NCBI RefSeq assembly: GCF_036250695.1
Contig: NZ_CP109427.1
Location: 1,178,001-1,242,000 of the forward strand
Direction of reading: 5' to 3'
DNA: 64,000 bases
Source of the DNA: Streptomyces sp. NBC_01497
GTDB lineage: Bacteria > Actinomycetota > Actinomycetes > Streptomycetales > Streptomycetaceae
In this document: positions 26,634-46,658 of the stretch, piece after piece
Layout: each line of letters opens with the position of its first letter
Numbering within the stretch: position 1 is the first letter of the stretch
Notes under the pieces: model-generated
Told to the model about the DNA's origin: nothing
The model's database searches: none
The model's input: only the letters and a program-made list of their open reading frames with translations
Made by a program: the position numbers and the translations under genes

Positions 26634-26645
26634 GGAGTTCCTCCC

Positions 26646-27899
26646 ATGACCCAGGCAGTGCAGACCCAGGACGGCGCCCAGGCCCTGGCCGGCGTGCGCG
26701 TCCTCGACATGACGCATGTGCAGTCGGGCCCCTCCGCGACCCAACTGCTCGCGTGGCTCGGCGCCGACGTGGTGAAACTGGAGGCCCCCAGTGGTGACAT
26801 CACCCGCAAGCAACTGCGGGACCTCCCCGACGTCGACTCGCTGTACTTCACGATGCTCAACTGCAACAAGCGGTCCATCACACTGAACACCAAGACGGAG
26901 CGCGGCAAGGAGATCCTGACCGAACTGATCCGCCGCTCTGATGTGATGGTGGAGAACTTCGGCCCGGGTGCGGTGGACCGGATGGGCTTCACCTGGGAGC
27001 GCATCAGGGAGATCAACCCGAGGATCATCTACGCCTCGATCAAGGGTTTCGGCGAGGGCCCGTACACGAACTTCAAGGCCTACGAGGTCGTCGCACAGGC
27101 GATGGGCGGCTCGATGGCCACCACCGGTTTCGCGGACGGTCCGCCCACCGCGACGGGCGCGCAGATCGGCGACTCGGGCACCGGTGTGCACGCGGTGGCC
27201 GGCATTCTCGCGGCGCTGTACCAGCGCGAGTCCACCGGCCGCGGCCAGCGGGTGAACGTCGCCATGCAACACGCCGTCCTCAATCTGTGCCGGGTCAAAC
27301 TCCGTGACCAGCAGCGCCTCGCGCACGGCGCCCTGCGGGAGTACCCAAACCGGGACTTCGGCGACGAGGTGCCCCGCAGTGGCAACGCGAGCGGCGGTGG
27401 GCAGCCCGGCTGGGCGGTGCGGTGTGCGCCCGGCGGACCGAACGACTACGTGTACGTGATCGTGCAGCCGGTGGGGTGGGCGCCGATCACCGAACTCATC
27501 GGCAGGCCCGAGCTGGCGAACGACCCCGACTGGGCGACCCCCGAGGTGCGGCTGCCCAAGCTGGACAAGATGTTCCAGCTGATCGAGGAGTGGTCCGCGG
27601 GGCTGCCCAAGTGGGAGGTGCTGGAGAAGCTCAACGCCCACAACATCCCGTGCGGCCCGATCCTGTCCACGAAGGAGATCATCGAGGACGCCTCGCTGGC
27701 CGCGAACGACATGGTCGTGCGGGTCGAGCACCCCACCAGGGGCAGCTTCACCACCGTGGGCAACCCGCTCAAACTGTCGGACTCTCCCGTCACCGTCACG
27801 ACGTCGCCCCTGCTGGGCGAGCACAACACCGAGGTCTACGGCGAACTCGGCCTCGACGACGAGGAACTGGGCGCCCTGAAGACGAACGGAGTCATCTAG
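26646..27899 (+). CDS. frc: Formyl-CoA:oxalate CoA-transferase
   Basis: A 417-residue class III CoA-transferase that moves CoA from formyl-CoA to oxalate. It follows the Oxalobacter enzyme closely as I recall it: [17 protein letters not shown] at the start, [34 protein letters not shown], the catalytic Asp in [10 protein letters not shown] (about residue 175), the mobile glycine loop [11 protein letters not shown] and the closing IPCGPILS block. Its stop (TAG) shares a base with the GTG of the next gene. It closes the formyl-CoA/oxalyl-CoA cycle with the decarboxylase upstream. Confidence 0.93.
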
Positions 27900-30043: not shown

Positions 30044-30120
30044 ACCGGCTCCTGAAGCGCGAAGAGTCCGGACAGGGGGCGCTGGCCAGGTTCTTTGGAA
30101 GCCGAAGGAGACGATGCGCA

Positions 30121-31515
30121 ATGAGTAGCGACGTAGGGCGGGAGCCGGCGCCGGCCGCTTACCGCGAGGTCACGGACAGCAGGGGCCGGATCTATCGGGT
30201 GGGTGAGACCGACCGCGAGATACTCGGCCATTCGCGCAGGTTGATGATGTGGCTGCCGTGGGCCGCCATGTTCTCGATCAGTGTGTTCGAGTACGCCTAC
30301 GGTTCGGCCGAGGACGTGCTCTCGGACGCCCACGGCTGGAGCCAGAGCAACACCTTCTGGATCCTCAGCGTGTGGACGTTCTTCCAAGCGGGCGTGTCGT
30401 TCCCGACCGGATGGCTGCGGGAGAAGGGCTATCTCAAGCCGAAGGCCGCGATCCTGCTGGGCTCGGTACTGGCCCTGCTGGGATTCCTCGCGATCTCCCA
30501 CTTCCACAACGTGTTCCTGGCCGTCCTCGGGTTCGGTGTTTTCGGTGGAGTGGGCTCCGGTCTGGTGTACTCCACGTGCATCAACATGACCGGCAAGTGG
30601 TTCCCGGAGCGGCGGGGCAGCACGACCGGATTCGTCAACGGCGGGTTCGCGTACGGCGCGGTGCCGTTCATCTTCATCTTCAACTTCGCCTTCGACACCA
30701 GCAACTACCACGTGGTTCTCGACCTCGTCGGTGTCTACGTGATGGTCGTGCTGTTCGCCGTCGCCTGGTTCTTCAAGGACCCGCCGAAGAACTGGTGGCC
30801 GGCGCACGTGGACCCGCTCAGGCGGGGACAGGGCAACGCGAAGACCGCCCGGGCCCTGGCGAAGAACCCGCCCGCCATCAAGCAGTACACGCCGATGGAG
30901 GCGCTTCGGACCGGTCAGCTGCCGCTCATCTGGGTGCTGCTGGTGATCACCGCGGGAGTCTCCATATTCGGTGTGTCCTTCCAGGTCCCGTTCGCCAAGG
31001 AGGTCGGGTTCGGTCCGCTCGTCGCGGCCAACTCGGCGGGCGTCCTCTCCGTCGTCAACGGCGTCGGACGGGCGATCGTCGGCTGGATGTCCGACGTGGT
31101 GGGCCGCAAGGCGGCCCTGATCCTGGTGATCCTCGTACTGGGGCTCTCGCAGTTCGGCGTGATGTGGGCGGGCAACATCCACAGTGAGTGGCTGTTCCTG
31201 GTGTTCGCGTTCTTCTCCGGGTTCGGCGGCGGCGCGTTCTACCCGATGTTCGCCACCCTGGTGCCGGACTACTTCGGCGAGAACAACAACGCCACGAACT
31301 ACGGGATCGCCTACAGCGGCAAGGTGATCAGCGGCCTGTTCGGCTCGGGCCTCGGGTCGATGGTCATCGACAAGTGGGGCTACAACGGCGCCTACACCAC
31401 GGCCGGTGTGATCTCACTGGTGGCGGCGGGGCTCGCCCTGCTGCTGCGGCATCCCGGGGCGCCACGCCGAGGGGAGTCGCCCAATCCCCGGCCCGTCAGC
31501 CGCGAGGCGGCGTGA
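30121..31515 (+). CDS. OFA-family (oxalate/formate antiporter-like) MFS transporter
   Basis: A 464-residue, 12-segment transporter with a 40-residue soluble N-terminus, then segments containing SISVFEYAYGSAEDVL, GVFGGVGSGLVYSTCINMTGKWFPERRGSTTG (a hallmark layout of the OxlT group) and SDVVGRKAALIL. GAAGGAG precedes the ATG by 10 nt; the ATG at 30114 is blocked by an in-frame stop after four codons. It ends the decarboxylase-frc-synthetase operon and likely brings in oxalate, perhaps in exchange for formate. Unlike the second OFA transporter in this window, I find no small subunit behind it. Confidence 0.85.
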   Translation: MSSDVGREPAPAAYREVTDSRGRIYRVGETDREILGHSRRLMMWLPWAAMFSISVFEYAYGSAEDVLSDAHGWSQSNTFWILSVWTFFQAGVSFPTGWLREKGYLKPKAAILLGSVLALLGFLAISHFHNVFLAVLGFGVFGGVGSGLVYSTCINMTGKWFPERRGSTTGFVNGGFAYGAVPFIFIFNFAFDTSNYHVVLDLVGVYVMVVLFAVAWFFKDPPKNWWPAHVDPLRRGQGNAKTARALAKNPPAIKQYTPMEALRTGQLPLIWVLLVITAGVSIFGVSFQVPFAKEVGFGPLVAANSAGVLSVVNGVGRAIVGWMSDVVGRKAALILVILVLGLSQFGVMWAGNIHSEWLFLVFAFFSGFGGGAFYPMFATLVPDYFGENNNATNYGIAYSGKVISGLFGSGLGSMVIDKWGYNGAYTTAGVISLVAAGLALLLRHPGAPRRGESPNPRPVSREAA

Positions 31516-31682: not shown

Positions 31683-32729
31683 TCAGCCCTTCGTCTTCTC
31701 CGTCAGGGCGTGCAGGTGGTCCGCCGACTTGCGGGCGAACTCCAGTGAGTCCACGGGCTGGTCGTGCTCCACCTGCCAGTGGTGCGACGTGCGGCCCTTG
31801 TTGGTGGCGTTGACCTTCTGGATGAACGTCTTGTAGTCGATGTCCCCGTCACCGACGTCGACCATGTCGTATCCGTCGCCCGCTTCGGGGTCGTGGACGC
31901 CGTCCTTGACGTGGAAGAGCGGATAGCGGTGGGGCTGCTCGACCACGTAGTCGATCGGCTCGAAGGGCCGCGGCTTGCCCTGGGGCGTGACACTGAAGCG
32001 GAACTGCGCCGTGAAGGCCCAGTAGATATCCATCTCCAGGAACACGAACTTCGGGTCGGTCTCCGCCAGCAGCACGTCGTACAGGCGCACGTCCGGGTTG
32101 TCGGACGCGAAGGCGAACTCGTCGCCGTGGTTGTGCTGGTAGAACTTCATGCCCCGCGCCTTGGCGGCCTCCCCGTACGTGTTGAACTCAGCGGCGGCCC
32201 GCTTCCACGCGTCGACCGTGTTGCCGTACCGGTTGGGGCTGGAGGCGGTTCCGATGTGTTCGAGGCCGAGGGTCTCGGCGTCGTCCAGCACCTTGCCGAG
32301 GCTGGTGGCGAAGCTGTAGCCGTTCGGGTCGCTGGTGAAGTAGCCGACGTGGCTGCCGATGCCGTTGAGACCGTAGCTCGTGGCGAGCCGCGCCACCTGC
32401 TTCACCGAGATGGACCCGATGCCCTGGGTGTATCCGGCGTACTCGATCTCGTCGTAACCGAACTCCGAGAGCTCCTTGAAGACGGAGGCGAAGCCGATCT
32501 GCTGGACCTTGTCGCGCAGCGAGTACAGCTGGATGCCGAGACGTCCCGGCGGCAGTACGGGCCGGGTCGGCGCGGGCTTCTTGCCGGCGGCGGCCGTCGG
32601 GGCGGCGCCCGCGGTGCCCGCCGTCAGGCCGAGCAGCGCGGCGGCCCCCGCGCCCGCGGTGACACCGAGCATGCCGCGTCTGCTCAGCCGGTGGGCGAGC
32701 TCGGCGTCGACGGTCTTGTTGCGGATCAT
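31683..32729 (-). CDS. Tat-exported sugar phosphate isomerase/epimerase-like TIM-barrel protein
   Basis: A 348-residue protein with a Tat signal (LSRRGMLGVTAG then a hydrophobic stretch ending TAGAAP near residue 43), followed by an AP-endonuclease-2/xylose-isomerase TIM barrel (LGIQLYSLRDKVQQIG, FYQHNHGDEF, FLEMDIYWAF, LFHVKDG). The His, Glu and Asp of these strands form the usual metal site. It is the last gene of the ebo-like operon and overlaps the phosphodiesterase gene by 4 nt (ATGA). Export of a folded metalloenzyme suggests that the last step, or a salvage step, of this pathway occurs outside the membrane. Confidence 0.85.
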   Translation of the reverse strand: MIRNKTVDAELAHRLSRRGMLGVTAGAGAAALLGLTAGTAGAAPTAAAGKKPAPTRPVLPPGRLGIQLYSLRDKVQQIGFASVFKELSEFGYDEIEYAGYTQGIGSISVKQVARLATSYGLNGIGSHVGYFTSDPNGYSFATSLGKVLDDAETLGLEHIGTASSPNRYGNTVDAWKRAAAEFNTYGEAAKARGMKFYQHNHGDEFAFASDNPDVRLYDVLLAETDPKFVFLEMDIYWAFTAQFRFSVTPQGKPRPFEPIDYVVEQPHRYPLFHVKDGVHDPEAGDGYDMVDVGDGDIDYKTFIQKVNATNKGRTSHHWQVEHDQPVDSLEFARKSADHLHALTEKTKG

Positions 32730-34153
32730 GAGCGGGACTCCTTGTGTGGTCGGTGCGGGTCTGCCAGCCCGAGGAGCAGGGATTTCACATCGGTCGCCGC
32801 GACGCGGCCACCGACGACTCCGGGGGTGGAGCACAACAGGACGGGGCCCTCCTCGTCGCTCGCCGGAAGGCGGCCGTGGCTGCCGCGGATCGGCGAGGCG
32901 TCCAGCGGGACGACCGCCATCCGGTAGCGCAGGCCCGCCTTCTTGCGGGCGAGCGCCGCGGCGGCCCTGAGCCGGACATAGGGGTCGTGCGGATCCATGA
33001 ACAGCTCGACCGGGTCGTAGCCGGGCTTGCGGTGGATCTCGACCAGCTGCGCGAAGTCGGGGGCGCGCGCGTCGTCCAGCCAGTAGTAGTACGTGAACCA
33101 GGCGTCCGGCTCCGCGACGGCGACCAGTTCGCCCGCGCGCGGGTGGTCGAGGCCGTGGCGCTTCTTGCCCGCGTCATCGAGCAGTTCGGCGATGCCGTCG
33201 AGTCCGGCCAGTGCTTCCCGGACGGCCGCTGTCTCGCCGGGCCTCTCAGGTTTCGCGATGTAGACGTGGGCGATCTGGTGGTCGGCGACGGCGAAGGCGC
33301 GGGAGGCCATCGGGTCGAGGTACTCCATGCCGTCCTGGGTGTGCACCTCCAACAGCCCGGCCCTGCGCAGGGCCCGGTTGATGTCGACGGACCGGGAGAC
33401 CTTCGTGATGCCGTACTCGGAGAGCGCGACGACAGTGCGCCCGGCCGCCCGCGCGTCGTCGAGCAGTGGCGCGAGGGCCGTGTCGAGGTCGGCGGCGGCG
33501 CGCAGGGAGCGCGGGTCGTCGGGGCCGTAGCGCTGGAGGTCGTAGTCGAGGTGCGGCACATAGCACAGCGCGAGGTCAGGGGCGCGGGTGCGCAGGATGT
33601 GCCGGGTCGCATCGATGATCCACTGCGAGGAGACCAGGTCAGCGCCGGGGCCCCAGAAGTGGAACAGCGGGAACGTGCCCAGTTTCGCGGTGAGTTCGTC
33701 GTGCAGGGCGGGCGGCCGGGTGTAGCAGTCCGGCTCCTTGCGGCCGTCGGCGTAGTAGACGGGGCGTGGTGTGACGGTCCAGTCGGTGTCGGCACCCATC
33801 GCGTACCACCAGCAGATGTTGGCGACGCTGTAGCCGGGGAACGTGCGCCGGGCGGCGTCCCACAACCGGTCGCCCCGCACGAGGCCGTTGTGCTGGCGCC
33901 ACAGCAGGACGTCACCGAGTTCGCGGAAGTACCAGCCGTTGCCGACGATGCCGTGCTCGGCGGGAAGGGTGCCGGTGAGGAACGTGGACTGGGCGCTGCA
34001 GGTCACGGCGGGCAGGACCGTCTCCAGAGTGGCCCGCGACCCGCCCCGCGCCATCCGTTCCAGGTGCGGCATGTGCTCCAGCAGACGCGGGGTGAGGCCG
34101 ACGACGTCGAGGACCAGGAGCGGCACGGGGCGGTCGGGAGACGGTTCGGTCAT
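32726..34153 (-). CDS. Alkaline-phosphatase-superfamily phosphodiesterase (EdbF-like)
   Basis: A 475-residue type I phosphodiesterase/nucleotide pyrophosphatase-like enzyme: VLDVVGLTP near the start, nucleophile Thr in PAVTCSAQSTFLTGTLPAEHG (about residues 49-68), metal ligands in VPHLDYDLQRYGPDD and ALSEYGIT, and DHQIAHVYI further on. No signal peptide is seen. ATGA overlaps link it to eboE before it and the Tat isomerase after it. In the Pseudomonas edb cluster a phosphatase of this superfamily occupies the comparable place. Substrate is unknown. Confidence 0.85.
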   Translation of the reverse strand: MTEPSPDRPVPLLVLDVVGLTPRLLEHMPHLERMARGGSRATLETVLPAVTCSAQSTFLTGTLPAEHGIVGNGWYFRELGDVLLWRQHNGLVRGDRLWDAARRTFPGYSVANICWWYAMGADTDWTVTPRPVYYADGRKEPDCYTRPPALHDELTAKLGTFPLFHFWGPGADLVSSQWIIDATRHILRTRAPDLALCYVPHLDYDLQRYGPDDPRSLRAAADLDTALAPLLDDARAAGRTVVALSEYGITKVSRSVDINRALRRAGLLEVHTQDGMEYLDPMASRAFAVADHQIAHVYIAKPERPGETAAVREALAGLDGIAELLDDAGKKRHGLDHPRAGELVAVAEPDAWFTYYYWLDDARAPDFAQLVEIHRKPGYDPVELFMDPHDPYVRLRAAAALARKKAGLRYRMAVVPLDASPIRGSHGRLPASDEEGPVLLCSTPGVVGGRVAATDVKSLLLGLADPHRPHKESRS

Positions 34154-35319
34154 GGCAGCTCCTTGAGGCCGAGGTCGGTCAGCAGGTCCCGGGCGAGGAC
34201 GAGTTCGGCGGCGATGCCGTCGGCTAGCCGGCCCCGGGTGCGCGGTCGCAGCTCGGCGGGGAGCGCCTGCCAGGTGTAGGTCTCGACCTCCAGGTGGCGG
34301 GTGCGCGGCTCGGCGACGCCGACCAGCCCGGCGAGCACGACGCGCAGCACATCGAGCGTCGAGGAGAGCGGCGGCGCGGGCGGCGCGTGCAGCGGTACGT
34401 GGAAGTGGGCGCGCCAGGGCGACCCGTCGGGCAGCGCGTCACCGACCAGGGCTTCGTCCAGGTCGTCGGTGCCGCGCAGGCCCGCCGCCGTTCGCGTGCG
34501 GGTCTGGTGCAGGAAGCGGGGTTCCGCGAACGCCCCGAGCGCGGCGCGGACCTCCGGCAGGTGCGGGTGTTCGGCGTGCAGGGCCGCGGACAGCTGCGTC
34601 TTGGGGACGGTGACGCCGGCGGCGGCCAGCGCGGCGAGGGCGGCGAGCGGGTCCTCGAAGGAGGTGGCCAGATGGCAGGTGTCGACGCACACCCCGATCC
34701 GGTCGGAGGCGACGGCGACGACCGGCGCGATGGCGTCCGCGGTGGTTTCCACGGTGCAGCCGGGCTCGGGCTCCAGGGCGATCCGGATGGACTTGCCGGT
34801 CAGTTCCTCCAGCGCGTCGAGCCGCCGGGCGAGGGTGACGAGCGCGCGGTGCGCGGTGCGGGCCGCCTCCGCGTCGTAGGCGGTGCGCCAGGCGAGCGGC
34901 AGGGTGGAGATGGTGCCCTCGGTGACATCGTCCGGCAGGAGCGCGGCGAGGAGCCTGGCGAGGTCGGTGGTGTACGCCAGGCGTTCCGGGTCCGCCCAGT
35001 CGGGCTTGTACACGCGGTACTTGACCTGGTCCGAGCCGAAACCGTCGTAGGGGAAGCCGTTCAGGGTCACGACCTCCAGACCGCGCCGGTCGAGTTCGGA
35101 ACGCAGAGCGCGCAGCCGCGCGGGGTCGTCCACGAGGGTGCGGGCGGCGGGCCTCGCGAGCCAGAGGCCGATACCGAGGCGGTCGCGGCCGAGGCGCCTG
35201 CGGACGGGTTCGCAGTGGTCGCGCAGCTGGGCGAGCACTCCGTCGAGGCTCTCGGCCGGGTGGACGTTCGTGCAGTACGCGAGGTGGACGGTGGAGCCGT
35301 CGGGGTGGCGGAAGCGCAT
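34150..35319 (-). CDS. eboE: EboE-like TIM-barrel protein
   Basis: A 389-residue xylose-isomerase-like barrel. The N-terminal run YCTNVHPAES, then GIGLWLARPAARTL, EVVTLNGFPYDGFGSDQVKY and YKPDWADPERLAYTTDLARL match EboE as I know it from ebo clusters. Later strands supply the metal site (ALEPEPGC, GVCVDTCHLA). ATG 35319 lies 4 nt after the eboB stop, and its own stop overlaps the phosphodiesterase start. Ebo proteins have been tied to moving a metabolite to the periplasm in cyanobacteria; the chemistry is not known. Confidence 0.88.
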   Translation of the reverse strand: MRFRHPDGSTVHLAYCTNVHPAESLDGVLAQLRDHCEPVRRRLGRDRLGIGLWLARPAARTLVDDPARLRALRSELDRRGLEVVTLNGFPYDGFGSDQVKYRVYKPDWADPERLAYTTDLARLLAALLPDDVTEGTISTLPLAWRTAYDAEAARTAHRALVTLARRLDALEELTGKSIRIALEPEPGCTVETTADAIAPVVAVASDRIGVCVDTCHLATSFEDPLAALAALAAAGVTVPKTQLSAALHAEHPHLPEVRAALGAFAEPRFLHQTRTRTAAGLRGTDDLDEALVGDALPDGSPWRAHFHVPLHAPPAPPLSSTLDVLRVVLAGLVGVAEPRTRHLEVETYTWQALPAELRPRTRGRLADGIAAELVLARDLLTDLGLKELP

Positions 35320-35323
35320 GGCC

Positions 35324-36184
35324 TCACTCCCCGCCGCGCAGGATGGAGTTGCCCTCGTGCTGCGCCCCCCGCTCGCCGGCCGGGGCCGGGACGTCGAGCT
35401 GGAGCCGGCCGCTCTGGCCGTAGAACGCCACGGGGTTGGCCCACAGCACCTGTTCGACGTCGTCGTCGGTGAACCCGGCGGCGAGCATGGCGTCGGCGAC
35501 CTTGCGGGTCTTGAGCGGATCACTCCTGCCCCAGTCCGCGGCGGAGTTGACGAGGACCCTCTCGGTCCCGTGGTCCTTGAGGACGGCGACCATGCGGTCC
35601 TCGTCCATCTTGGTGTCGGGGTAGATGGAGAAGCCGAGCCAGCAGCCGCTGTCGGCGGCGTCCTTGACGGTGGTCTCGTTGAGGTGGTCGAGCAGTACCC
35701 GTTCGGGTGCGAGTGCCGACTCGCGTACGGCGTCGACGGTGCGGCGCAGCCCGGTGAGCTTGTCGCGGTGCGGGGTGTGCACCAGGGCGGGCAGGCCGTG
35801 GTCGGCGGCGAGTTGGAGCTGTGCGGCGAGGGCGTGGTCCTCGGCCGGGGTCATCGAGTCGTAGCCGATCTCGCCGACGGCGACCACACCGTCCTTGACG
35901 AGGTAGCGCGGCAGCGCGTCGAGGACGGGGGCGCAGCGCGGGTCGCCCGCCTCCTTCGGGTTGAGGGCGAGGGTGCAGTGGTGGGCTATGCCGTACTGGG
36001 CCGCGCGGAACGGCTCCCAGCCGAGCAGCGCGTCGAAGTAGTCGTAGAAGCTGGCCGGCGAGGTGCGGGGCTGGCCGAGCCAGAACGACGGCTCCACGAG
36101 GGCGCGCACACCGCTGTCGTACATGGCCCGGTAGTCGTCCGTGGTGCGGGAGGTCATGTGGATGTGGGGGTCGAAGATGCGCAT
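35324..36184 (-). CDS. eboB: EboB-like TatD-family metal hydrolase
   Basis: A 286-residue TatD-type amidohydrolase barrel: FDPHIHMTSR metal motif at the start, EIGYDS, HTPHRDK, LLDHLNE and a late Asp in NSAADWGRSD. The regularly spaced metal ligands suggest an active hydrolase. Its ATG shares a base with the eboA stop (TGATG). Member of the coupled ebo-like operon; substrate unknown. Confidence 0.88.
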   Translation of the reverse strand: MRIFDPHIHMTSRTTDDYRAMYDSGVRALVEPSFWLGQPRTSPASFYDYFDALLGWEPFRAAQYGIAHHCTLALNPKEAGDPRCAPVLDALPRYLVKDGVVAVGEIGYDSMTPAEDHALAAQLQLAADHGLPALVHTPHRDKLTGLRRTVDAVRESALAPERVLLDHLNETTVKDAADSGCWLGFSIYPDTKMDEDRMVAVLKDHGTERVLVNSAADWGRSDPLKTRKVADAMLAAGFTDDDVEQVLWANPVAFYGQSGRLQLDVPAPAGERGAQHEGNSILRGGE

Positions 36185-36765
36185 CAGGACTCCAGTCCCG
36201 TGAGGGCGAGTACGCGGTGGAGGCCGGCCGGCACGGTGCGGCCGGCGGCGCTGCGTTCAGCGGCGAAGTCGGCGAGCATGCGGGCGAGTTCGCTGTCACC
36301 CGCGGCGCGCCGGGCCAGTGCGGCGACGTGCTCGACCGGAACCCCGGTGAACAGGCACTTCAGTACGGCGTGCCGCCATGCATGCGGGTCCAGGTGGTCG
36401 GCCGCGTAGGGCCCCACGGCGGCGGCCACGAGCCGTGTGTCGTTGGCACGCAGGGCGTCCTCGATGAGCGGCACGGCCCCCGGACCCGGTACGCGTGCGG
36501 GCAGGGCGAGCAGTACGGCCCGCCGCTCGGCGCCGCTGCCCTGCCGGTAGAGGCGGGTCAGTGTCGCGAGGTCCGCGCCGGCACGGTCGAGGAGCAGGAC
36601 GCGGACGTCGTCGGCGTTGTCCTGTCCGCAGTACCGACCGGCGGCGGCGAACCTGAGTTCCCAGGCGCCCTCCCCCGGTGCGGCGGCCTCGGTGAGCGCG
36701 GCGTCGAGCCAGGCCAGGCCCGCGCCGTCGAGGCGGGGGACGAGCGCGGCGCGGGTGGGGGTCAT
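36184..36765 (-). CDS. eboA: EboA-like helical protein
   Basis: A 193-residue, mostly helical protein with WLDAALTEAA, RFAAAGRYCG and a HEAT-like centre (RLYRQGSGAERRAVLLALP, ALRANDTRLVAAAVGPYAADHLD) followed by WRHAVLKCLFTGVPV, the typical EboA block. No catalytic motif is seen, so it may be a scaffold or assembly factor. ATGA overlap with the isomerase gene upstream. Confidence 0.85.
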   Translation of the reverse strand: MTPTRAALVPRLDGAGLAWLDAALTEAAAPGEGAWELRFAAAGRYCGQDNADDVRVLLLDRAGADLATLTRLYRQGSGAERRAVLLALPARVPGPGAVPLIEDALRANDTRLVAAAVGPYAADHLDPHAWRHAVLKCLFTGVPVEHVAALARRAAGDSELARMLADFAAERSAAGRTVPAGLHRVLALTGLES

Positions 36766-37622
36766 GCGGCAGCTCCCTTCGCACGGTCGGTGGCTGATCG
36801 CAGGAATTCGAGGGAGCGACGGGCGAGTTCGGGGCCCGCGTGGGAGTGGCGGGGCAGTTCCACGACGGTGAGTCCCTGGTAGCCGGCGGCGTCGAGGGCG
36901 TCGAGTACGGGCGGGAAGTCGATCTCGCCGTCGCCGAACGGCAGGTGTTCGTGGATACCGCGCCGCATGTCCTCGATCTGCACATGGCGCAGCCATGGAG
37001 CGGCGTCGCGTACGCAGGCGGCGGGCGTCGCCGCCTCCAGGCACTGGCAGTGGCCGATGTCGAGCGTGAGGCCGAGGGAGGGGGGATCGCCGAGGCGGCG
37101 CCGCAGTTCGTGGAAGGCCGCGAGGTCGCCGACGAGGTGCCCGGGCTCGGGTTCGACGGCGAGCGGGACCCCGGCGCGGTCCGCCGCGTCGAGCAGGGGT
37201 GCGAAGCCCTCTTCGAGCCGTGCCCAGCCGAGGGCCGGGTCCTCGCCCCCGGCGGGCACGCCGCTGAAACAGTGGACCGCGTGTGCGCCGAGGTCGGCGG
37301 CGACGCGTACGGCACTCAGCAGGAGCGCCACCCGAGCGGCGCGCGCCTCGGGGTCGGGGTCGAGGAGTGTGGGCCCGTGCTTGCGGCGGGAGTCGAGGAC
37401 GTAGCGCGCGCCGGTCTCCACGGTGACGCCGAGCCCGAGCGCCGCCAGCCGTGCGGCGACGGCGCGGGTGCGGGCCCCGAGGTCCGGGGCGAGCGGGTCG
37501 AGGTGCATGTGGTCGAGGGTCAGGCCGACGCCGTCGTAGCCGAGGTCGGCGAGCAGCGCGAGGGCGTCGGTCAGGCGCAGGTCGGTGAGGCCGTTGGTGC
37601 CGTAGCCGAGGCGGAGGCTCAT
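36762..37622 (-). CDS. Cytoplasmic sugar phosphate isomerase/epimerase-like TIM barrel
   Basis: A 286-residue AP-endonuclease-2/xylose-isomerase barrel (LGYGTNGLTDLRLTDALALL, AVEPEPGHL, LTLDIGHCQCL, VQIEDMRRGIHEHLPFGDGEIDF). Metal-ligand Glu, Asp and His are in these strand ends. Coupled by 4-nt overlaps to the UbiA-like gene before it and eboA after it. It is distinct from the Tat-exported isomerase at the end of the operon. It may isomerise or epimerise the cyclitol/sugar headgroup made by the first gene, which is an inference from position. Confidence 0.85.
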   Translation of the reverse strand: MSLRLGYGTNGLTDLRLTDALALLADLGYDGVGLTLDHMHLDPLAPDLGARTRAVAARLAALGLGVTVETGARYVLDSRRKHGPTLLDPDPEARAARVALLLSAVRVAADLGAHAVHCFSGVPAGGEDPALGWARLEEGFAPLLDAADRAGVPLAVEPEPGHLVGDLAAFHELRRRLGDPPSLGLTLDIGHCQCLEAATPAACVRDAAPWLRHVQIEDMRRGIHEHLPFGDGEIDFPPVLDALDAAGYQGLTVVELPRHSHAGPELARRSLEFLRSATDRAKGAAA

Positions 37623-38644
37623 GTGGGGCTCACCTTCCGGGCGAGCAGCCGGGCGAGGGGGGCCAGCGCGGCGACGGCGAGGGCGGTCAGCGGGTCACCG
37701 GCGCGGGCGGCGAGGGCGGACTGGAGGGGGATCATGGCGCGGATGCCGCCGCCGACGGCACGCTGGGTGAGTGGCGGCGAAGGATTGAGCAGAGCATGCC
37801 AAGCAGGACGCCCGGTGGTGGCGAGGTACGCGGCGGCGAGCCCCGCGACGACCAGGCGCCCGGCCGGATCCACCCGACCGCTCCCGGTACGGGCCTGCGT
37901 CAGGTCCCCGGACCCACCGCAGACAGGTGCGATGAGCTCCGCGGCGCGCACTCCGGCGGGGCCGGCTGCGGATCGCGTCGGGACCCGTACTCCGGGCCGC
38001 GGCGGGGCACCCGGGCGGTGCGGTGGGCGGATCAACGCCGCCGACAGCGTTGTCGCGGTCGCCAGCGCCGCCAGGGGCGCGGCCAGGGCACCGCCCTGGG
38101 TCTCCCCGCGCGAGACGGTGGTGACGGCAGCGGTGTGCGCTCCGAGCGCGAGGGCGGCGGGCAGCACGGCGCCCGGCCCCCGGGCCTCCGGGGTCGCCGA
38201 CGCGCCCAGCAGGACATCCAGCGAACGGGCCGCGCCCATGGCGACCGGACCCGCGACGGTGTGCTTCAGCCTCAGGTCGTACGCCCACACGGTGGCGGCG
38301 ATCGCCGCCGACACCGCCAGCGGGCGGCGTCCCGCCACAGCCGCCAGGGCCAGACCGGCCGCCGTCAGGGCGCCCGCCGCCGCGAGCGCGGCGCGCGGTG
38401 CGATCCGGCCGGAGGGGATCGGCCGGTGCGGCCGGTCCACCGCGTCCTCCGCCCGGTCCGCCCAGTCGTTGAGCGCCATGCCTGCCTCGTACAGGCACAG
38501 CGAGGAACCGATCACCAGGGCCGTGCCGCGCCCGGGCCGGGCACCGGCCGCCGCGACACCGGCGAGGGCGTCGCCGGGAACGGTGAACAGAGCCGAGACA
38601 CGCAGTAGTTCGGCCCAGTCGCGGGCCCGTCGCAGCAGGCTCAC
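37619..38644 (-). CDS. eboC: UbiA-family prenyltransferase (EboC-like)
   Basis: A 341-residue membrane protein of about 8 helices. The first Asp-rich prenyl-diphosphate motif is ALNDWADRAEDAVDRPHRPIPSG (about residues 60-82), as in UbiA enzymes; the second conserved region is TVWAYDLRLKHT. It resembles the SCO3242-type actinomycete family. GTG 38644 overlaps the stop of the preceding gene (GTGA). It should attach an isoprenoid chain to an acceptor at the membrane. In this operon a cyclitol- or sugar-derived acceptor is plausible, but not shown. Confidence 0.85.
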   Translation of the reverse strand: MSLLRRARDWAELLRVSALFTVPGDALAGVAAAGARPGRGTALVIGSSLCLYEAGMALNDWADRAEDAVDRPHRPIPSGRIAPRAALAAAGALTAAGLALAAVAGRRPLAVSAAIAATVWAYDLRLKHTVAGPVAMGAARSLDVLLGASATPEARGPGAVLPAALALGAHTAAVTTVSRGETQGGALAAPLAALATATTLSAALIRPPHRPGAPPRPGVRVPTRSAAGPAGVRAAELIAPVCGGSGDLTQARTGSGRVDPAGRLVVAGLAAAYLATTGRPAWHALLNPSPPLTQRAVGGGIRAMIPLQSALAARAGDPLTALAVAALAPLARLLARKVSPT

Positions 38645-39774
38645 GCGCCCGCCCCCAGCCGGCCCGCGAAGGCCAGCAGTTCCTCGAACTGCTCGGCGAG
38701 GGCGACGGACCGTCCGTCCGGATCCTTGAAGTAGAAGCCCAGTTGCGGCAGCGCCCCGCCGATCCCCGCCTCGTGTGCGCGGGCGACGAGCCGGGCGAGG
38801 TCGAGCACGAGGGGCGCGGCCAGCGCCGAGTCGCACCCCTGCCAGGTGGTCTGGAGGATCATCCGCGAGCCGAGGAAACCGTCGAAGGCGATGTGGTCCC
38901 AGGCCGTCTTCCAGTCGCCGAGTGCCGGCACGTCGTCGATGTGCACCTCGCCCTCGGGAGCGGCGCCGAGCGCGTCGGCGAGGACGCGCTCCTTGCCCGC
39001 GTTCTTGGCCGCCGCCGCGGCCGGGTCCGCGAGGGCGGCGCCGTCGCCGCCGCCGAGCAGGTTCGTACCGGACCAGGCCCGTACGTTCAGCGCGCGCTGC
39101 ACGAACATCGGGGCGAGCACGGACCGCAGCAGGGTCTGGCCCGTCTTGCCGTCGCGGCCAGCGTGGGGAAGCCCGCTCGCGGCGACGGCGGCGGCCAGGA
39201 CGGGGGTGCGCAGGCCGGTGGACGGGGTGAAGTTGACGTATCCGCACCCCGCGCGGACCGCCGCGGCCGCGTACAGGGAACTCGCGGGCAGCCGGGGATC
39301 ACCGGGCGCGGGCAGCGGCTCCGTGGACGACACGTTGACGACGACCGTACGGGCGACCCCCATGCGGCGGGTGAAGCCCGCGATGTCGGCGGCGAAGCCC
39401 GCGATGATCTCCTCGTCGTCGCGGGTGTCGCCGGGTCCCGGGCCGCCGGTCCTGATCTCCGCGTCGGCGGCGGCCAGTTCCGCCGTGATCGCGCCGACGA
39501 GCCCATGGGGCAGCACGCCCGCCTCGGTGAGCGCCTCGGCACGTTTGGGCAGCGGGCAGCTCGCGGTGTCGTGCCCGCCGAACACGAGCGAGGACAGCGC
39601 GGGCAGTCCGGCCCCCGCGAAGGGCGGCGTCTCCGTGACCATCCCGGTCGGGGCGTGCAGGCCCGCGGTCACCGCCGCGCACCCCGCGACCGCGGTGGTC
39701 GCGACGGAGCCGCGTGCCCCGACGAACCAGACTCCGGTGCGCGCTGTGGCCGATTCGCTGCTGGTCGTCGTCAC
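38641..39774 (-). CDS. Inositol-3-phosphate synthase-like protein, first gene of the ebo-like operon
   Basis: A 377-residue NAD-dependent isomerising aldolase of the INO1 family: Rossmann start GVWFVGARGSVATTAVAGC, VVVNVSSTEPLP, YVNFTPSTG, the central DGKTGQTLLRSVLAPMF block and NLLGGGDGAAL. It turns glucose-6-phosphate into inositol-3-phosphate in known members; this one could make another cyclitol phosphate. GTG 39774 has AGGAGG 7 nt upstream. It heads an eight-gene coupled operon, at the place where ebo/edb clusters carry a dehydroquinate-synthase-like sugar phosphate cyclase. Confidence 0.87.
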   Translation of the reverse strand: MTTTSSESATARTGVWFVGARGSVATTAVAGCAAVTAGLHAPTGMVTETPPFAGAGLPALSSLVFGGHDTASCPLPKRAEALTEAGVLPHGLVGAITAELAAADAEIRTGGPGPGDTRDDEEIIAGFAADIAGFTRRMGVARTVVVNVSSTEPLPAPGDPRLPASSLYAAAAVRAGCGYVNFTPSTGLRTPVLAAAVAASGLPHAGRDGKTGQTLLRSVLAPMFVQRALNVRAWSGTNLLGGGDGAALADPAAAAAKNAGKERVLADALGAAPEGEVHIDDVPALGDWKTAWDHIAFDGFLGSRMILQTTWQGCDSALAAPLVLDLARLVARAHEAGIGGALPQLGFYFKDPDGRSVALAEQFEELLAFAGRLGAGA

Positions 39775-40250: not shown

Positions 40251-43200
40251 TCAGCCGGTCGGCGCGGGCAGTTCCTTGATCTGGATGTTGCGGAACGCCG
40301 CCTGATCGTCGGGCCCGTGGTTCTGGATCCCGATGTAGCCGTCCTTCAGGCTGCGCGCGGGGTCCTTGTTGGTGAAGTCGTTGATCTTCACGCCGTTCAG
40401 GAAGACCTGGAGACGTTCGCCCTGGACCTTGATCTCGTAGCTGTTCCACTGGCCGGGCGGGCGCAGCACGCGGTCGCGCGCCTTGATGTCCGCCGCTTTG
40501 AAGGTGTAGATCGAGCCGGTGGTGCGGTCCGGCGCGTCGGTCGCGTCGATCTGCACCTCGTACCCGTTGTCGACCGCCGACCAGGGGTCGTCCGACTCGG
40601 GGAAGCCCACGAATACGCCGGAGTTGTCGTCGCCGTCGAGCTTCCAGTCCAGCTTCAGCGAGTAGTCCGAGAACTGCTTCGCCTGGTACCACAGGAGGCC
40701 GAGGCCGCCCGCCGAGTGCAGTTCGCCGCCGCCGATGTCGAACGCTCCGGGACCCGCGTGCTTCCAGCCCTCCAGCGTCTGGCCGTTGAAGAGGTCCCGG
40801 TATCCGCTCTGGGGCTTGCAGTCGGCCTTGACCTGGCCCGTCGTGTACTTCAGGCCGCCGAGCAGCATGCCGCGGAAGTCCGCGTCCGCGTAGGACTCCT
40901 TGGTGTGTCCGAGACCGGTGTAGAAGGACCGGCCGCCCTGGTAGTCCTGGCACCAGCTGATCGGGTGGTCGCCGCGCATCGTGCCGCCCTGGTAGGTGGT
41001 CTCGTCCAGGGTGGCGAGGACGTGAACGCTGCCGCGCGGGTTGGTGCGGTAGTTGTACAGCTCGTCGTTCCAGCTCCAGGCCTTCGGCAGGTGCGCCGTC
41101 GCCGGGTTCTTCTGGTCCTCGACCCGTACGGTCACGGGCTGGGGCGTCGGGTGGCCCTGGAAGTAGGCGCCGACCAGGCCGCCGTAGAAGGACCAGTCGT
41201 ACTCGGTGTCGGCCGCCGCGTGGACGCCCATGTAGCCGCCGCCGGTGGAGATGAAGTACTCGAACGCCTTCTGCTGCTCGGGGTTGAGCACGTCACCGGT
41301 GGTGGAGAGGAAGACGACCGCGTCGTACCGGGCGAGGTTGTTCGTGGTGAACTGGGCGGCCGTCTCCGTGGTGTCGACGGTGATGTTGTTCTGCGCGCCG
41401 AGTTCCTTCAGCGCGGCGATGCCCTCGGGGATGGCGTCGTGCCGGAACGCGGCGGTCTTGGAGAAGACGAGGATCCGCTTCTCGGTCTTCCCTGGCGCCT
41501 GGTCGCTGATGCGGAAGTCGTCGATGTCGTAGAGCGCACCCTCGCCGCCCTTGAAGACGAGGAACAGCTTCGTGGACTTCGTGGGCACACCGCGCAGGGG
41601 CACGTCGATGTCCTGGAAGGTGTCCCAGCTGCCGGTGACGGGGATCGGTGCGGAGCCGAGGATCTTCCCGTCCGCCGAGCCGGTGCGCACTTCGAGGAAA
41701 CCGCCCGCGCCGGCGGAGGAGATCCGCGCGGTCAGGGTCTTCGCGCCGGTCAGGTTGTAGGGCGTGAAGGAGATCCAGTCGCCGTCGTTGATGTCGCCGA
41801 CGGTCTTGCCGCCGTTCGCGCTGGTCTTGGCCTGCTGGGTGATGCCCGAGGAGTCGGTGTAGTGCTCGGCCTGCCGGTGGCGGGGCTGGAGCTGCACCTC
41901 GTCGTGGGTGGTCAGCGGGGCCTGACCGCCGCCACCGCCGTCAGTGTATTCGGCGTCCAGTACACCGAAGATGTTGGCGTTGGGGTCGTGGTCGGCGTCG
42001 GCCGGCGCCGTGATGGTGCCCTCGCAGCCGTTGGCGGAGGTGAGCGGATGGCCGTGGTTGTCGTGCCCGAGCACGTAGTGGACGGTCACCTTCGCGCAGT
42101 CGACCGGTCCGTCCTCCGGATCGGTGACGGTGACCTTGAAGGGCAGTGTGTCACCGAAGTCGAACAGGGCGCCGTCGGACGGCACGGTCAGTTCGACCTT
42201 CGGCGCGGTGTTGCCGACGACCACCTGGACGGAGGCGGTGGCGGTGTGGCCGTCGGGGTCGGAGGCGGTGAGCGTCGCCGTGTAGGTGCCGTTCTTCTTG
42301 TACGGGTGCGTCGGGTCCGCCTCGGTCGAGCGGGCCCCGTCGCCGAAGTCCCACGCGTAGGAGACGGTGTCGCCGTCGGGGTCCGTGGTGCCCGCGGAGG
42401 AGAACGCGACCCGCAGCGGGGCGGCGCCCGACGTCTTGTTGGCGACAGCCTTGGCGACGGGCGCCCGCCCGCCGGTGACGTTCTCGATGCGGTAGACGCC
42501 CGAGTTGTCGTCCCCGCCGAACCAGGAGAGCCCGTAGTCGAGGACGTAGAGGGCGCCGTCGGGGCCGAACTCCATGTCCATGACCTGGGTGCCGGTCCAC
42601 GGGAAGTCGTTGATCTTCTGGACGGTGCCATCGCCGTCCTGCTCGATCCGCTTGATCCACTGACGGCCGAACTCACCGGCGAAGAAGTTCCCGTCGTACT
42701 CCTCGGGGAACTTCACGGGCGAGGTGGAGGTGGGGTCGTAGCGGTAGACGGGGCCGCCCATCGGCGACTCGGAGCCGCTGCCGAACTCGGGGACGCTGCC
42801 ACCGTCGTACGGGATCCAGGCCGGCTGTGCGGGCGGCAGATCGACCAGGCCGGTGTTGTGCGGCGAGTCGTTCTTCGGCGCGGCGCAGTCGAAGGCCGCG
42901 CCCGACGTCCCGGTCGCGAAGTCGTAGTCGATGAACGGGTCGTTGTTCCCCGTGCAGAACGGCCAGCCGAAGTTGCCCGCCCGGGTGACCCTGGCGAACT
43001 CCACTTGGCCGCCTGGGCCCCGGGTCGGGGACGCGGCGCCCGCGTCGGGGCCGTAGTCGCCCACGTAGACGATGCCGGTCTTCTTGTCGACGGACATCCG
43101 GAACGGATTGCGGAAGCCCATCGCGTAGATCTCGGGACGCGTCTTCGCGGTGCCGGGGGCGAAGAGGTTGCCGTCGGGCACGGTGTACGACCCGTCGGCG

Positions 43201-43964
43201 GCGACCTTGACGCGCAGGATCTTGCCGCGCAGGTCGTTGGTGTTGCCCGCGCTGCGCCGGGCGTCGAACGCCGGGTTGCGGTCGGGGCGTTCGTCGATGG
43301 GTGCGTAGCCGTCGGAGGCGAACGGGTTGGAGTCGTCGCCGGTCGACAGGTAGAGGTTGCCCTCGCCGTCGAAGGCGATGTCACCGCCGACGTGGCAGCA
43401 GATGCCGCGCGAGGTCGCGACGTCGAGGACCTTCTTCTCGCTGGCCTTGTCGAGGGTGCCGTCCGCTTCGAGGGTGAACCGGGAGAGCCGGTTGTAGCCG
43501 TCGAAGGGAGCGAAGTCGGCGGCCGAGCCGGTCTCGGGCGCGTCGGTGGCCGGGGTGTCGAGCTTCGGCGCGTAGTAGAGGTAGATCGCCCTGTTGTGCG
43601 CGAAGTCCGGGTCCACGCCGACGCCTTGCAGGCCCTCCTCGTCGTGGTTGTACACGTCGAGGGTGCCGGCGACCTTGGTGGTGCCGTTCGCATCGGTGAT
43701 CCGCAGGACCCCGTCGCGCGAGGTGTGCAGCACCTCGCGGTCCGGCAGGACGGCCAGCGACATGGGCTCGCCGACCTCGGCTGCGCCCTTGGCGAGCGTC
43801 ACCTGCTGGAAGACCGGGTCGGCGGCCGCGGGTGCGGCTGCCACCACGGCGGCGGACGCGGTGTTCGCCGCGGCGGTGGGTACGGCGCCGAGGCTCGCGC
43901 CGGCGAGCAGGACGCCTGTCAGCGCGGCGAGGAGCGATCTTGCTCCGGGACGTTTTCTGTGCAC
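40251..43964 (-). CDS. Secreted multidomain protein: glucose-dehydrogenase-type propeller, PKD, CBM6-like, ThuA and DUF1080 domains
   Basis: A 1237-residue exported protein. After a signal peptide (to about residue 34) come a PQQ-glucose/sorbosone-dehydrogenase-type beta-propeller (about 50-510; EGLQGVGVDPDFA, MGFRNPFRMSVD), a PKD domain (about 515-595; YAWDFGDG), a CBM6-like domain (about 690-830; GDWISFTPYNLTGAKTL), a ThuA domain (about 835-1045; LVFSKTAAFRHDAIPEGI, MGVHAAADTEYDW, WCQDYQGGRSFYTGLGHT) and DUF1080 (about 1060-1235; DLFNGQTLEGWKH, YEVQIDA). GTG 43964 has GGAGG 6 nt upstream. The domains suggest oxidation and cleavage of a glycoside outside the cell, matching the sugar operon upstream. 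Confidence 0.88.
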   Translation of the reverse strand: MHRKRPGARSLLAALTGVLLAGASLGAVPTAAANTASAAVVAAAPAAADPVFQQVTLAKGAAEVGEPMSLAVLPDREVLHTSRDGVLRITDANGTTKVAGTLDVYNHDEEGLQGVGVDPDFAHNRAIYLYYAPKLDTPATDAPETGSAADFAPFDGYNRLSRFTLEADGTLDKASEKKVLDVATSRGICCHVGGDIAFDGEGNLYLSTGDDSNPFASDGYAPIDERPDRNPAFDARRSAGNTNDLRGKILRVKVAADGSYTVPDGNLFAPGTAKTRPEIYAMGFRNPFRMSVDKKTGIVYVGDYGPDAGAASPTRGPGGQVEFARVTRAGNFGWPFCTGNNDPFIDYDFATGTSGAAFDCAAPKNDSPHNTGLVDLPPAQPAWIPYDGGSVPEFGSGSESPMGGPVYRYDPTSTSPVKFPEEYDGNFFAGEFGRQWIKRIEQDGDGTVQKINDFPWTGTQVMDMEFGPDGALYVLDYGLSWFGGDDNSGVYRIENVTGGRAPVAKAVANKTSGAAPLRVAFSSAGTTDPDGDTVSYAWDFGDGARSTEADPTHPYKKNGTYTATLTASDPDGHTATASVQVVVGNTAPKVELTVPSDGALFDFGDTLPFKVTVTDPEDGPVDCAKVTVHYVLGHDNHGHPLTSANGCEGTITAPADADHDPNANIFGVLDAEYTDGGGGGQAPLTTHDEVQLQPRHRQAEHYTDSSGITQQAKTSANGGKTVGDINDGDWISFTPYNLTGAKTLTARISSAGAGGFLEVRTGSADGKILGSAPIPVTGSWDTFQDIDVPLRGVPTKSTKLFLVFKGGEGALYDIDDFRISDQAPGKTEKRILVFSKTAAFRHDAIPEGIAALKELGAQNNITVDTTETAAQFTTNNLARYDAVVFLSTTGDVLNPEQQKAFEYFISTGGGYMGVHAAADTEYDWSFYGGLVGAYFQGHPTPQPVTVRVEDQKNPATAHLPKAWSWNDELYNYRTNPRGSVHVLATLDETTYQGGTMRGDHPISWCQDYQGGRSFYTGLGHTKESYADADFRGMLLGGLKYTTGQVKADCKPQSGYRDLFNGQTLEGWKHAGPGAFDIGGGELHSAGGLGLLWYQAKQFSDYSLKLDWKLDGDDNSGVFVGFPESDDPWSAVDNGYEVQIDATDAPDRTTGSIYTFKAADIKARDRVLRPPGQWNSYEIKVQGERLQVFLNGVKINDFTNKDPARSLKDGYIGIQNHGPDDQAAFRNIQIKELPAPTG

Positions 43965-44137
43965 GAAAGTCCTCCGGGGAGTGGGCTGTTCGTACGCTTC
44001 CGGTGCTCGTCCGGCACCGGATCGTGAAAGGGCGGCAGTGGTGTGCGCCGTCACACCTGCCCCGCCAGGGCCTGTGCGGCCCGCTGTCCTGTGCAACCTC
44101 TGTGGACGGTAGCGGGGTTCGTCCCGTACCGAAAGAC

Positions 44138-44165
44138 CTTGCGCACGGATGCGCCGCAACTTTTC
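44138..44165. promoter_or_regulatory. Candidate ROK-regulator operator upstream of the multidomain protein gene
   Basis: CTTGC (44138-44142), 13 bp, then GCAACTTTT (44156-44164). The same arms and spacing occur in front of the ROK gene at 52362. It sits 174 bp upstream of the start in the 329-bp gap 43965-44293, which otherwise holds only the neighbouring terminator. Confidence 0.5.
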
Positions 44166-44293: not shown

Positions 44294-45298
44294 CTACCGG
44301 CCGCCGCCGAAGGCCGCGTCGAACGACGCGCTCGGCGGGTCGAAGTCGAACCTCTTCAGGTCGCGCAGCGCCTCGGGCGCCCCGGCGAGCCGGTCCATAC
44401 CCGCGTCCTCCCACTCCACCGAAACGGGGCCCTCGTAGCCGATGGAGCGCAGCATCCGGAAGACGTCCTCCCACGGCACGTCGCCGTGGCCGGCCGAGAC
44501 GAAGTCCCAGCCGCGCCGCGGGTCGCCCCACGGCAGGTGGGAGCCGAGCCGGCCGTTGCGCCCGTCGAGCCGCTTGCGGGCCTCCTTGCAGTCGACGTGG
44601 TAGATCCGGTCCCGGAAGTCGTAGAGGAAGGCGACCGGGTCCAGGTCCTGCCACACGAAGTGGCTCGGGTCGAAGTTCAGCCCGAACGCGGGGCGGTGGC
44701 CGACCGCTTCGAGCGCACGGTGCGTGGTCCAGTAGTCGTACGCGATCTCGCCCGGGTGCACCTCGTGGGCGAAGCGGACACCCTCCGCGTCGAACACGTC
44801 GAGGATCGGGTTCCACCGCTCGGCGAAGTCCTCGTACCCGCGCTCGATCATGCGGGGCGGGACCGGCGGGAACATCGCCACCAGGTGCCAGATCGCCGAG
44901 CCGGTGAAGCCGATGACGGTGTCCACACCGAAGGCCGCCGCGGCCCGCGCGGTGTCCTTGATCTCGGCCGCGGCGCGCTGCCGGACCCCCTCCGGGTCCC
45001 CGTCCCCCCAGACGCGGCCGGGCAGGATGTCCTGGTGGCGTTCGTCGATGATCGCGTCGCAGACGGCCTGCCCGACGAGGTGGTTGGAGACCGCCCAGCA
45101 CTTCAGGCCGTACTTCTCCAGCAGCTGGTGCCTGCCGGCCAGGTAACCCGGGTCGGCGAGGGCCTTGTCGACCTCGAAGTGGTCGCCCCAGCAGGCGAGT
45201 TCGAGACCGTCGTAACCGAAGTCCCGGGCGAGCCGGCACACCTCCTCCAGCGGCAGGTCGGCCCACTGCCCGGTGAACAGGGCGAACGGACGTGACAT
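44294..45298 (-). CDS. Sugar phosphate isomerase/epimerase-like TIM barrel
   Basis: A 334-residue AP-endonuclease-2-type barrel ([76 protein letters not shown]). Ligands for a metal are in the EVHP, FDPSH and CKE segments. It follows the Gfo/Idh/MocA gene by 12 bp, a pairing seen where a sugar is oxidised and then isomerised or cleaved. Cytoplasmic; no signal peptide. Confidence 0.88.
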
Positions 45299-45310
45299 GC
45301 GGGCTTCCTC

Positions 45311-46582: not shown

Positions 46583-46658
46583 AGGGGACACTCCTCGTCT
46601 GTATCGGTCAGCGGTGGTACAGCAGTCCCGGCGGGTACGTCCCACCCGCCTGTGCGGG

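Follow-up and report, generated by a model that had tools for sequence, protein, structure and literature searches.

What takes the place of eboD in an ebo gene cluster that lacks it? The question is raised by eight intact genes of Streptomyces sp. NBC_01497, all on the minus strand at positions 31683-39774 of the 64,000-nucleotide stretch analyzed here (hereafter the window; positions 1178001-1242000 of contig 1 of a 9.08 Mb genome). The eboA-F operon has been described from eustigmatophyte plastids, Bacteroidetes, and Cyanobacteria (PMC5133447), and the gene set spans many phyla as well as algal plastids. At the head of the window operon stands a gene for a protein resembling myo-inositol-1-phosphate synthase (MIPS), here termed INO1L, and a xylose-isomerase-like TIM barrel, termed TIM3, is encoded two genes further on. 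Comparison across genomes shows that two unrelated sugar-phosphate cyclases, EboD and INO1L, occupy one pathway position, and that the operon is an INO1-type variant of ebo that is common in Streptomyces.

Clusters were located with the EboE model (NF035939), which matched 19 of 396 sampled Actinomycetota genomes (18 above the cut-off) and, with one genome (G128) holding two, yielded 20 EboE clusters. INO1L stands at the head of 17, the window included; the other three are a cluster with EboD and neither INO1L nor TIM3 (L030), a cluster with neither cyclase (L027), and a split cluster whose MIPS and TIM3 pair lies on another contig (L044, with L065). A denser sample of the class contained EboE in 98 of 394 genomes (90 above the cut-off); after 12 genomes already counted and 8 with a partial EboE were dropped, 78 genomes with 81 full EboE loci remained. 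PF01658, one of the two INO1L domains, was found within 8 kb of EboE in 69 of these loci, or 70 counting G583. The 12 remaining loci comprise five lone EboE genes with no ebo neighbor found (L188 and L191-L194), three loci truncated by contig ends (G667, G458, and G575), the G583 locus (L187), in which INO1L is present, one where the site holds only part of INO1L (L186), a complete copy being on a separate contig of that genome (G549; L209), one split locus (L189/L204), and one second cluster without INO1L (L185). The operon had been presented as unusual in the first-pass annotation of this DNA, whereas most of the Actinomycetota clusters sampled have this form. In other phyla, a search with an EboE alignment whose first sequence was of the EboD type gave 585 loci, of which 80 were retained, so that this sample leans to the EboD type; 77 have EboD (two of these calls being fragments of 24 and 40 bits at contig ends), none has INO1L, and three have neither (L109, L127, and L150). 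Stand-alone EboE-like genes without ebo genes nearby were also seen (L195-L199, in addition to L188 and L191-L194), some of them split into two frames.

The same division appears in a combined tree of EboB, EboE, and EboF, inferred by a quick method with no bootstrap, in which one branch (Shimodaira-Hasegawa-like approximate likelihood ratio 100) parts the INO1L-type rows (20, plus three related clusters without local INO1L) from 24 EboD-type rows. The latter comprise L030 and 23 loci drawn from the 80 of other phyla, among them L127, on whose contig EboD was not seen. As the counts per phylum and this tree split alike, we conclude that INO1L, usually together with TIM3, fills the eboD slot. 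The absence of eboD from the operon had been recorded at first pass, and none of the eight genes matches the dehydroquinate synthase family PF01761. Two genes elsewhere in the genome do, AroB and one weak match, and they score 152 and 26 bits on a profile built from 76 EboD sequences, compared to 446-494 bits for four EboDs that were also in the training set. Apart from those four EboDs, every PF01761 gene scored (L003, L004, the remaining hits of the 19 EboE genomes, and the additional hits on 12 stretches, most of them secondary ones from the class sample) reached at most 158 bits. The only EboD among the 19 genomes lies in G381, inside an EboD-type cluster, and no EboD is among the PF01761 genes scored from the window's genome and the other INO1L-type genomes. 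In the 78 further genomes, whose main AroB hits were not scored individually on the EboD profile, no PF01761 hit falls within 60 kb of EboE, the nearest of 108 being 60.5 kb away. One weak match (L004, genome position 1089229) looks like a glycerol-1-phosphate-dehydrogenase-type protein and not EboD.

INO1L resembles most closely, among solved structures, the A. fulgidus MIPS (PDB 1u1i; 195 bits, E 1.7e-56), with PDB 1gr0 and 6k96 at only 36-40 bits (6k96 at 40); its closest relative, at 92% identity, is from S. fuscigenes (best 120 of 6947 matches, those named being from Streptomyces). Seven residues that we take to be the MIPS catalytic set, N238, D244, K257, K261, K289, D315, and K350 (A. 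fulgidus N255, D261, K274, K278, K306, D332, and K367), are invariant in 22 of 22 INO1L-clade copies and 14 of 14 generic MIPSs. The protein is not a mycothiol-type INO1, as it scores 32.6 bits on the corresponding equivalog model (TIGR03450, cut-off 638), and the genome already has an enzyme of that type. In a tree of the family, 22 rows (21 beside ebo genes and L209) lie on one side of a branch (support 80/78, 90% of bootstrap trees), separate from both the mycothiol-type INO1s and the generic MIPSs of archaeal type; another copy (L207) falls inside this clade, and with plasmid rows added the support becomes 87/96, with 86% of bootstrap trees.

The clade differs from generic MIPS at three loop positions, G236, G242, and G243, which are fixed in all 22 INO1L copies and are S, N, and R in all 14 generic sequences. 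These glycines flank the catalytic Asn and Asp, and the shape of the active-site pocket is therefore probably different. One explanation is that INO1L now uses a ketose phosphate such as sedoheptulose 7-phosphate, perhaps after epimerization by TIM3, whose nearest solved folds include ketose(-phosphate) 3-epimerases, and so makes the same C7 skeleton as proposed for EboD. Substrate changes do occur in the INO1 family, since it includes the five-membered-cyclitol-phosphate synthase 6k96, which presumably uses a ketose phosphate. We nevertheless regard this explanation as improbable: 6k96 is a far worse match than the archaeal MIPS, and the MIPSs of comparable clusters in haloarchaea and in Gemmatirosa, which fall outside the actinobacterial INO1L clade, keep the motif LGNxDG, so that the loop change is dispensable for such a pathway. 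On one plasmid each of Halocatena salina and Natronococcus sp. CG52 (L229 and L230), where no EboA was found, the MIPS gene adjoins EboF and is accompanied by EboB, UbiA, and two TIM barrels; in Gemmatirosa it occurs together with EboE, EboB, EboF, UbiA, and TIM3. The position of these MIPSs outside the clade and their LGNxDG imply either that MIPS was recruited repeatedly or that the loop glycines arose later, in the actinobacteria. The best-scoring model for the Halocatena UbiA is EboC, at 178.2 bits, below the cut-off of 250, and the two haloarchaeal clusters lie beside ThuA or pyrroloquinoline-quinone-dependent sugar dehydrogenase genes and ATP-binding cassette (ABC) transporter genes.

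TIM3 is present in 19 of the 20 INO1L-bearing ebo loci (missing in L201), and its profile matches four of the 77 EboD-bearing loci, three of them weakly (30-43 bits) and on the strand opposite EboE. Related TIM3 proteins (324-372 bits) are encoded along with a generic MIPS in three YcaO clusters (L204, L205, and L206), and one directly adjoins MIPS in L213. This company with MIPS, in ebo and non-ebo clusters alike, points to TIM3 working beside the MIPS step. The nearest folds to its predicted model (predicted local distance difference test, pLDDT, 95.3) are ketose 3-epimerases such as UlaE and xylose isomerases, which makes either a sugar before cyclization or a keto-cyclitol after it a possible substrate. 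TIM3 and EboA form a single open frame in L042, and fusions of this type in Actinobacteria are mentioned in PMC5133447. Upstream of the two INO1L-less clusters L027 and L185 are genes for a member of the inositol monophosphatase family (PF00459; L027, 194.3 bits) and for a flavin adenine dinucleotide (FAD) oxidoreductase. The YcaO clusters (L204, L205:7474-15222, and L206) encode the generic MIPS, HD-domain, methyltransferase, Gfo/Idh/MocA, and YcaO proteins, and the TIM3-like barrel, and have the appearance of a biosynthetic pathway that derives from inositol and includes a YcaO step.

The eight genes (Table 1) form a tightly coupled operon: all frames are open from ATG or GTG starts, five junctions (INO1L/UbiA, UbiA/TIM3, TIM3/EboA, EboE/EboF, and EboF/TIM8) overlap by 4 nt, EboA and EboB overlap by 1 nt, and a 4-nt gap separates EboB from EboE, in agreement with the arrangement first described. 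INO1L begins with GTG behind an AGGAGG-like ribosome site. Its place at the head of the operon and its family, both read from the sequence at first pass, are borne out, as are the EboA and EboE assignments, since both proteins pass curated cut-offs. Neither of the two findings named at first pass as refuting that reading was thus made: the EboA and EboE calls hold, and no co-occurring EboD turned up among the PF01761 genes scored. The type I phosphodiesterase, which had been listed apart, has the expected domain and is the known sixth ebo gene, eboF. Two TIM barrels had been described as additions, and both are present, but TIM3 alone is part of the core that different families share. TIM8 comes after eboF in loci of the same genus only, TIM8-like genes lie ahead of INO1L in two genomes of another class (L041 and L043), and its N-terminus carries, by eye, a twin-arginine-type signal (SRRGMLG). 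EboA is modeled as all helical (AlphaFold2 mean pLDDT 96.9) and is predicted to be a HEAT-like helical protein; it aligns with the EboA of EboD-type loci with 8 invariant columns over 53 sequences. An actinobacterial EboB profile scores 339-419 bits in those other-phylum loci that hold a whole eboB.

Table 1. Window operon, listed from its first to its last gene, and the gene upstream of it.
Gene	Window position	Strand	Assignment	Support
INO1L	38641..39774	-	myo-inositol-1-phosphate-synthase-like; first gene	PF07994 106.2 bits (cut-off 25), PF01658 103.9 bits (cut-off 27)
UbiA	37619..38644	-	UbiA-family prenyltransferase, SCO3242 family; EboC position	PF01040; NF045897 377.7 bits (cut-off 260)
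TIM3	36762..37622	-	xylose-isomerase-like TIM barrel; INO1L companion	PF01261; ketose-3-epimerase-like fold
EboA	36184..36765	-	EboA-domain protein	NF035938 154.2 bits (cut-off 50)
EboB	35324..36184	-	TatD-like metal-dependent hydrolase	PF01026 45.3 bits; PDB 3guw (AF_1765) E 2e-24
EboE	34150..35319	-	xylose-isomerase-like "metabolite traffic protein"; ATG at 35319	NF035939 426.1 bits (cut-off 250)
EboF	32726..34153	-	type I phosphodiesterase / nucleotide pyrophosphatase family	PF01663 223.8 bits
TIM8	31683..32729	-	TIM barrel; variable last gene	PF01261 56.4 bits; PDB 8tcd E 2.5e-17
GSDH-ThuA	40251..44159	-	GSDH + PKD + CBM6 + ThuA + 3-keto-disaccharide-hydrolase protein; upstream, outside operon	Pfam domains

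The prenyltransferase had been called eboC; its UbiA family and its position fit this name, but it reaches only 139.3 bits on the NCBIfam EboC equivalog model (cut-off 250) and belongs instead to NF045897, labeled "SCO3242 family prenyltransferase". A metal-binding motif, NDxxDxxxD, is found at residue 59. Because the cut-off for EboC is not reached and EboD is missing, the operon is best described as an ebo variant and not a canonical member. Membership in this sister subfamily also raises the question whether the two operon types make different products, with an aromatic acceptor for the UbiA enzyme and with INO1L either supplying an ordinary pool of inositol phosphate or being a side step. 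The EboC-type enzyme Ubi-297 and two relatives (Maribacter, Zobellia, and Algoriphagus) are described as farnesylating quinoline acids, among them 8-hydroxyquinoline-2-carboxylic acid (PMC9235831). Aromatic prenyltransferase or FAD monooxygenase genes near some plasmid operons, and a lone EboE in a type II polyketide synthase cluster, would fit as well. We consider separate products a minority possibility, although the strongest of the alternatives entertained here: INO1L and EboD, both of sugar-phosphate cyclase families, interchange in an otherwise homologous gene set, and the genome already holds a mycothiol-type INO1.

The GSDH-ThuA protein encoded upstream is probably secreted, as judged from a hydrophobic N-terminal stretch, and is possibly a partner of the operon. 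Genes with a ThuA domain lie within 20 kb of EboE in at least 21 of 62 loci (58 genomes, chosen from 97; loci of one family are not independent), against about 1.8 expected at random, and outside the window's own family in at least 11 of 46 against 1.5 expected, in three families. Relatives of the GSDH-ThuA protein were found in 15 of 36 INO1L-type stretches (including two haloarchaeal ones and L209) versus 4 of 81 others (L030 and the 80 other-phylum loci), stretch lengths differing between the sets; two unrelated left-hand neighbors used as controls gave 7 of 36 versus 0 of 81, as local synteny. Further upstream on the same strand (window 44297-52272) are genes for an IolE-like TIM barrel, a Gfo/Idh/MocA oxidoreductase (levoglucosan-dehydrogenase-like at 361 bits, below the cut-off of 650), and, by eye, ABC-transporter-like and ROK-like proteins. 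The operon could accordingly belong to a sugar-uptake and 3-keto-glycoside island, with its TIM barrels, its phosphodiesterase, and its TatD protein engaged in sugar processing and lipid formation secondary. This reading draws on the same-strand ThuA/3-keto-disaccharide-hydrolase, IolE-like, and oxidoreductase genes, on the ThuA counts, on the genes for ABC transport and ThuA close to the Halocatena cluster, and on the whole INO1L of G549, which sits among such genes without ebo genes. We think it unlikely, given that up to 41 of the 62 loci have no ThuA gene within 20 kb, that other copies of the operon lie in antibiotic-type clusters, and that a UbiA prenyltransferase has no evident catabolic role. 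On the other side of the operon, on the plus strand (window 24951-31515), are possible oxalate-use genes by eye (a thiamine pyrophosphate enzyme, a coenzyme A [CoA] transferase, a CoA ligase, and a major facilitator superfamily carrier), two of which recur near INO1L operons only as local synteny.

EboE was also found in 48 plasmid records, 29 of which carry INO1L a few kb away: 25 from Streptomyces (several near-identical), two from Embleya, and one each from Nonomuraea and Gemmatirosa. A ScyD/ScyE-family gene (NF033206, 243.2 bits in S. camelliae) precedes the operon on plasmids of S. camelliae, NBC_00028, and NBC_00019, the only three of the 36 INO1L-type stretches with such a neighbor. A multicopper oxidase and an aromatic prenyltransferase are encoded close by, and a scytonemin-like export with outside oxidation is possible in these Streptomyces (L227, L233, and L235). 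In NBC_01650 the operon follows genes annotated with adenylation domains, of the nonribosomal peptide synthetase (NRPS) type. Outward-facing oxidases and antibiotic-type genes thus recur next to some of the operons, in agreement with a function at or beyond the membrane. A plasmid of NBC_01244 carries an eboE on its own (L232:9995-11173), with no further ebo gene seen in the stretch; the surroundings are a type II polyketide cluster that includes FAD monooxygenases.

Taken together, we judge it somewhat better than an even chance that the variant pathway makes a prenylated, inositol-derived membrane compound that serves to move or oxidize metabolites outside the cytoplasm; the chemistry and the role, including the true substrate of INO1L, prenylation of a cyclitol, and the membrane-bound product, are what we infer from gene content and context. 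INO1L would form an inositol phosphate by cyclizing a sugar phosphate, for which glucose 6-phosphate is the likeliest candidate, and TIM3, from its fold and its company, may epimerize or isomerize the sugar before cyclization or a keto-cyclitol after it. The UbiA enzyme, going by its family, would add a prenyl chain to the cyclitol; EboB, EboE, and EboF might trim or remodel the head group, including phosphate removal or transfer, and EboA may act as a helical scaffold, as its model suggests. The membrane-bound prenyl-cyclitol would then help metabolites to reach, or be oxidized on, the outer face of the membrane, a role suggested by the GSDH-ThuA, ScyE, multicopper oxidase, and antibiotic-type neighbors and by analogy with Nostoc, where deletion of the ebo genes studied (eboD not among them) leaves the scytonemin monomer in the cytoplasm and where a lipid carrier has been suggested (PMC6282210). 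This reading is favored by the slot exchange, the tree split, the single INO1L clade, the conservation of catalytic residues in 22 of 22 copies, the inositol-monophosphatase-family gene beside L027 and L185, the combination of MIPS, UbiA, EboB, and EboF in haloarchaea and Gemmatirosa, and ScyE and multicopper oxidase beside three plasmid copies and NRPS-type genes beside one. The proposal made at first pass, that inositol phosphate replaces a sedoheptulose-derived cyclitol, thus gains from the exchange, the MIPS residues, and the neighboring phosphatase-family gene, but leaves the substrate as a deduction, and that interpretation as a whole is partly supported.

Several observations weigh against this proposal. 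To our knowledge, no product or enzyme activity has been reported for any part of the INO1-type variant. Three glycines in place of bulkier loop residues mean that the substrate may not be glucose 6-phosphate, the operon has no dehydrogenase to make a keto-cyclitol for TIM3, and the nearest folds of TIM3 act on free or phosphorylated ketoses. Two ebo clusters (L027 and L185) are without INO1L, two split clusters (L044/L065 and L189/L204) have a MIPS of generic type elsewhere, and INO1L also occurs without ebo genes, as a second, solitary copy in G504 (L207) and as the whole copy of G549 (L209), which lies beside TIM8, ThuA-type, Gfo/Idh/MocA, and ABC genes. The ThuA linkage could reflect sugar catabolism. 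Finally, the acceptors described for assayed EboC-type enzymes are aromatic, and a cyclitol is not shown among them (PMC9235831).

The replacement of the ring-forming enzyme by an INO1-family one lends independent support to a head group of the cyclitol kind, and is a hint that the product of ebo pathways is a lipid whose head is a ring-shaped sugar alcohol. The variant also places the pathway, with a precursor that can be fed and labeled (inositol), in genetically tractable Streptomyces. A more speculative extension, to which we give little weight, is that a class of prenyl-cyclitol membrane cofactors is common to bacteria and archaea, synthesized by way of one cyclase or the other, EboD or the unrelated MIPS, and used by secreted oxidoreductases, ScyE and GSDH-ThuA proteins among them; "metabolite traffic" would then be a consequence of an extracytoplasmic redox role.

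Several pieces of the operon are named by NCBI annotation, and the gene set is therefore known to annotators. The main texts of PMC5133447, PMC6282210, PMC6092422, and PMC9235831 do not contain the word inositol, and searches of open-licence PMC papers, a scope that excludes figures and subscription papers, gave no account of the exchange of EboD for INO1L; ebo clusters of Saccharomonospora are figured in PMC9235831, and the variant may already appear there uncommented. Among known systems, S. coelicolor SCO3242 and SCO3243 are, by name alone, the same gene types (SCO3242 family and myo-inositol phosphate synthase), and are counted among the genes of the calcium-dependent antibiotic (CDA) cluster (PMC3610822). 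No CDA-like cluster is seen beside the operon in the window, so the operon is not tied to CDA. The five-membered-cyclitol-phosphate synthase (6k96) is likewise an INO1-family cyclase, with a different product and only a distant match to INO1L, whereas the A. fulgidus MIPS shares family and catalytic residues with INO1L, which differs in its distinct clade, its three loop glycines, and its ebo-like operon. The Pseudomonas EDB cluster, as described in PMC6282210 after Burlinson et al., contains an ebo cluster with a suggested link to an exported or surface metabolite and, unlike the window, has an eboD homologue. Closest of all is the published ebo operon eboA-F, with which the window operon shares clustered homologous EboA, EboB, EboE, and EboF and a UbiA prenyltransferase; the published operon has EboD, where the window operon has INO1L and TIM3 instead, together with a UbiA enzyme below the EboC cut-off and another gene order.

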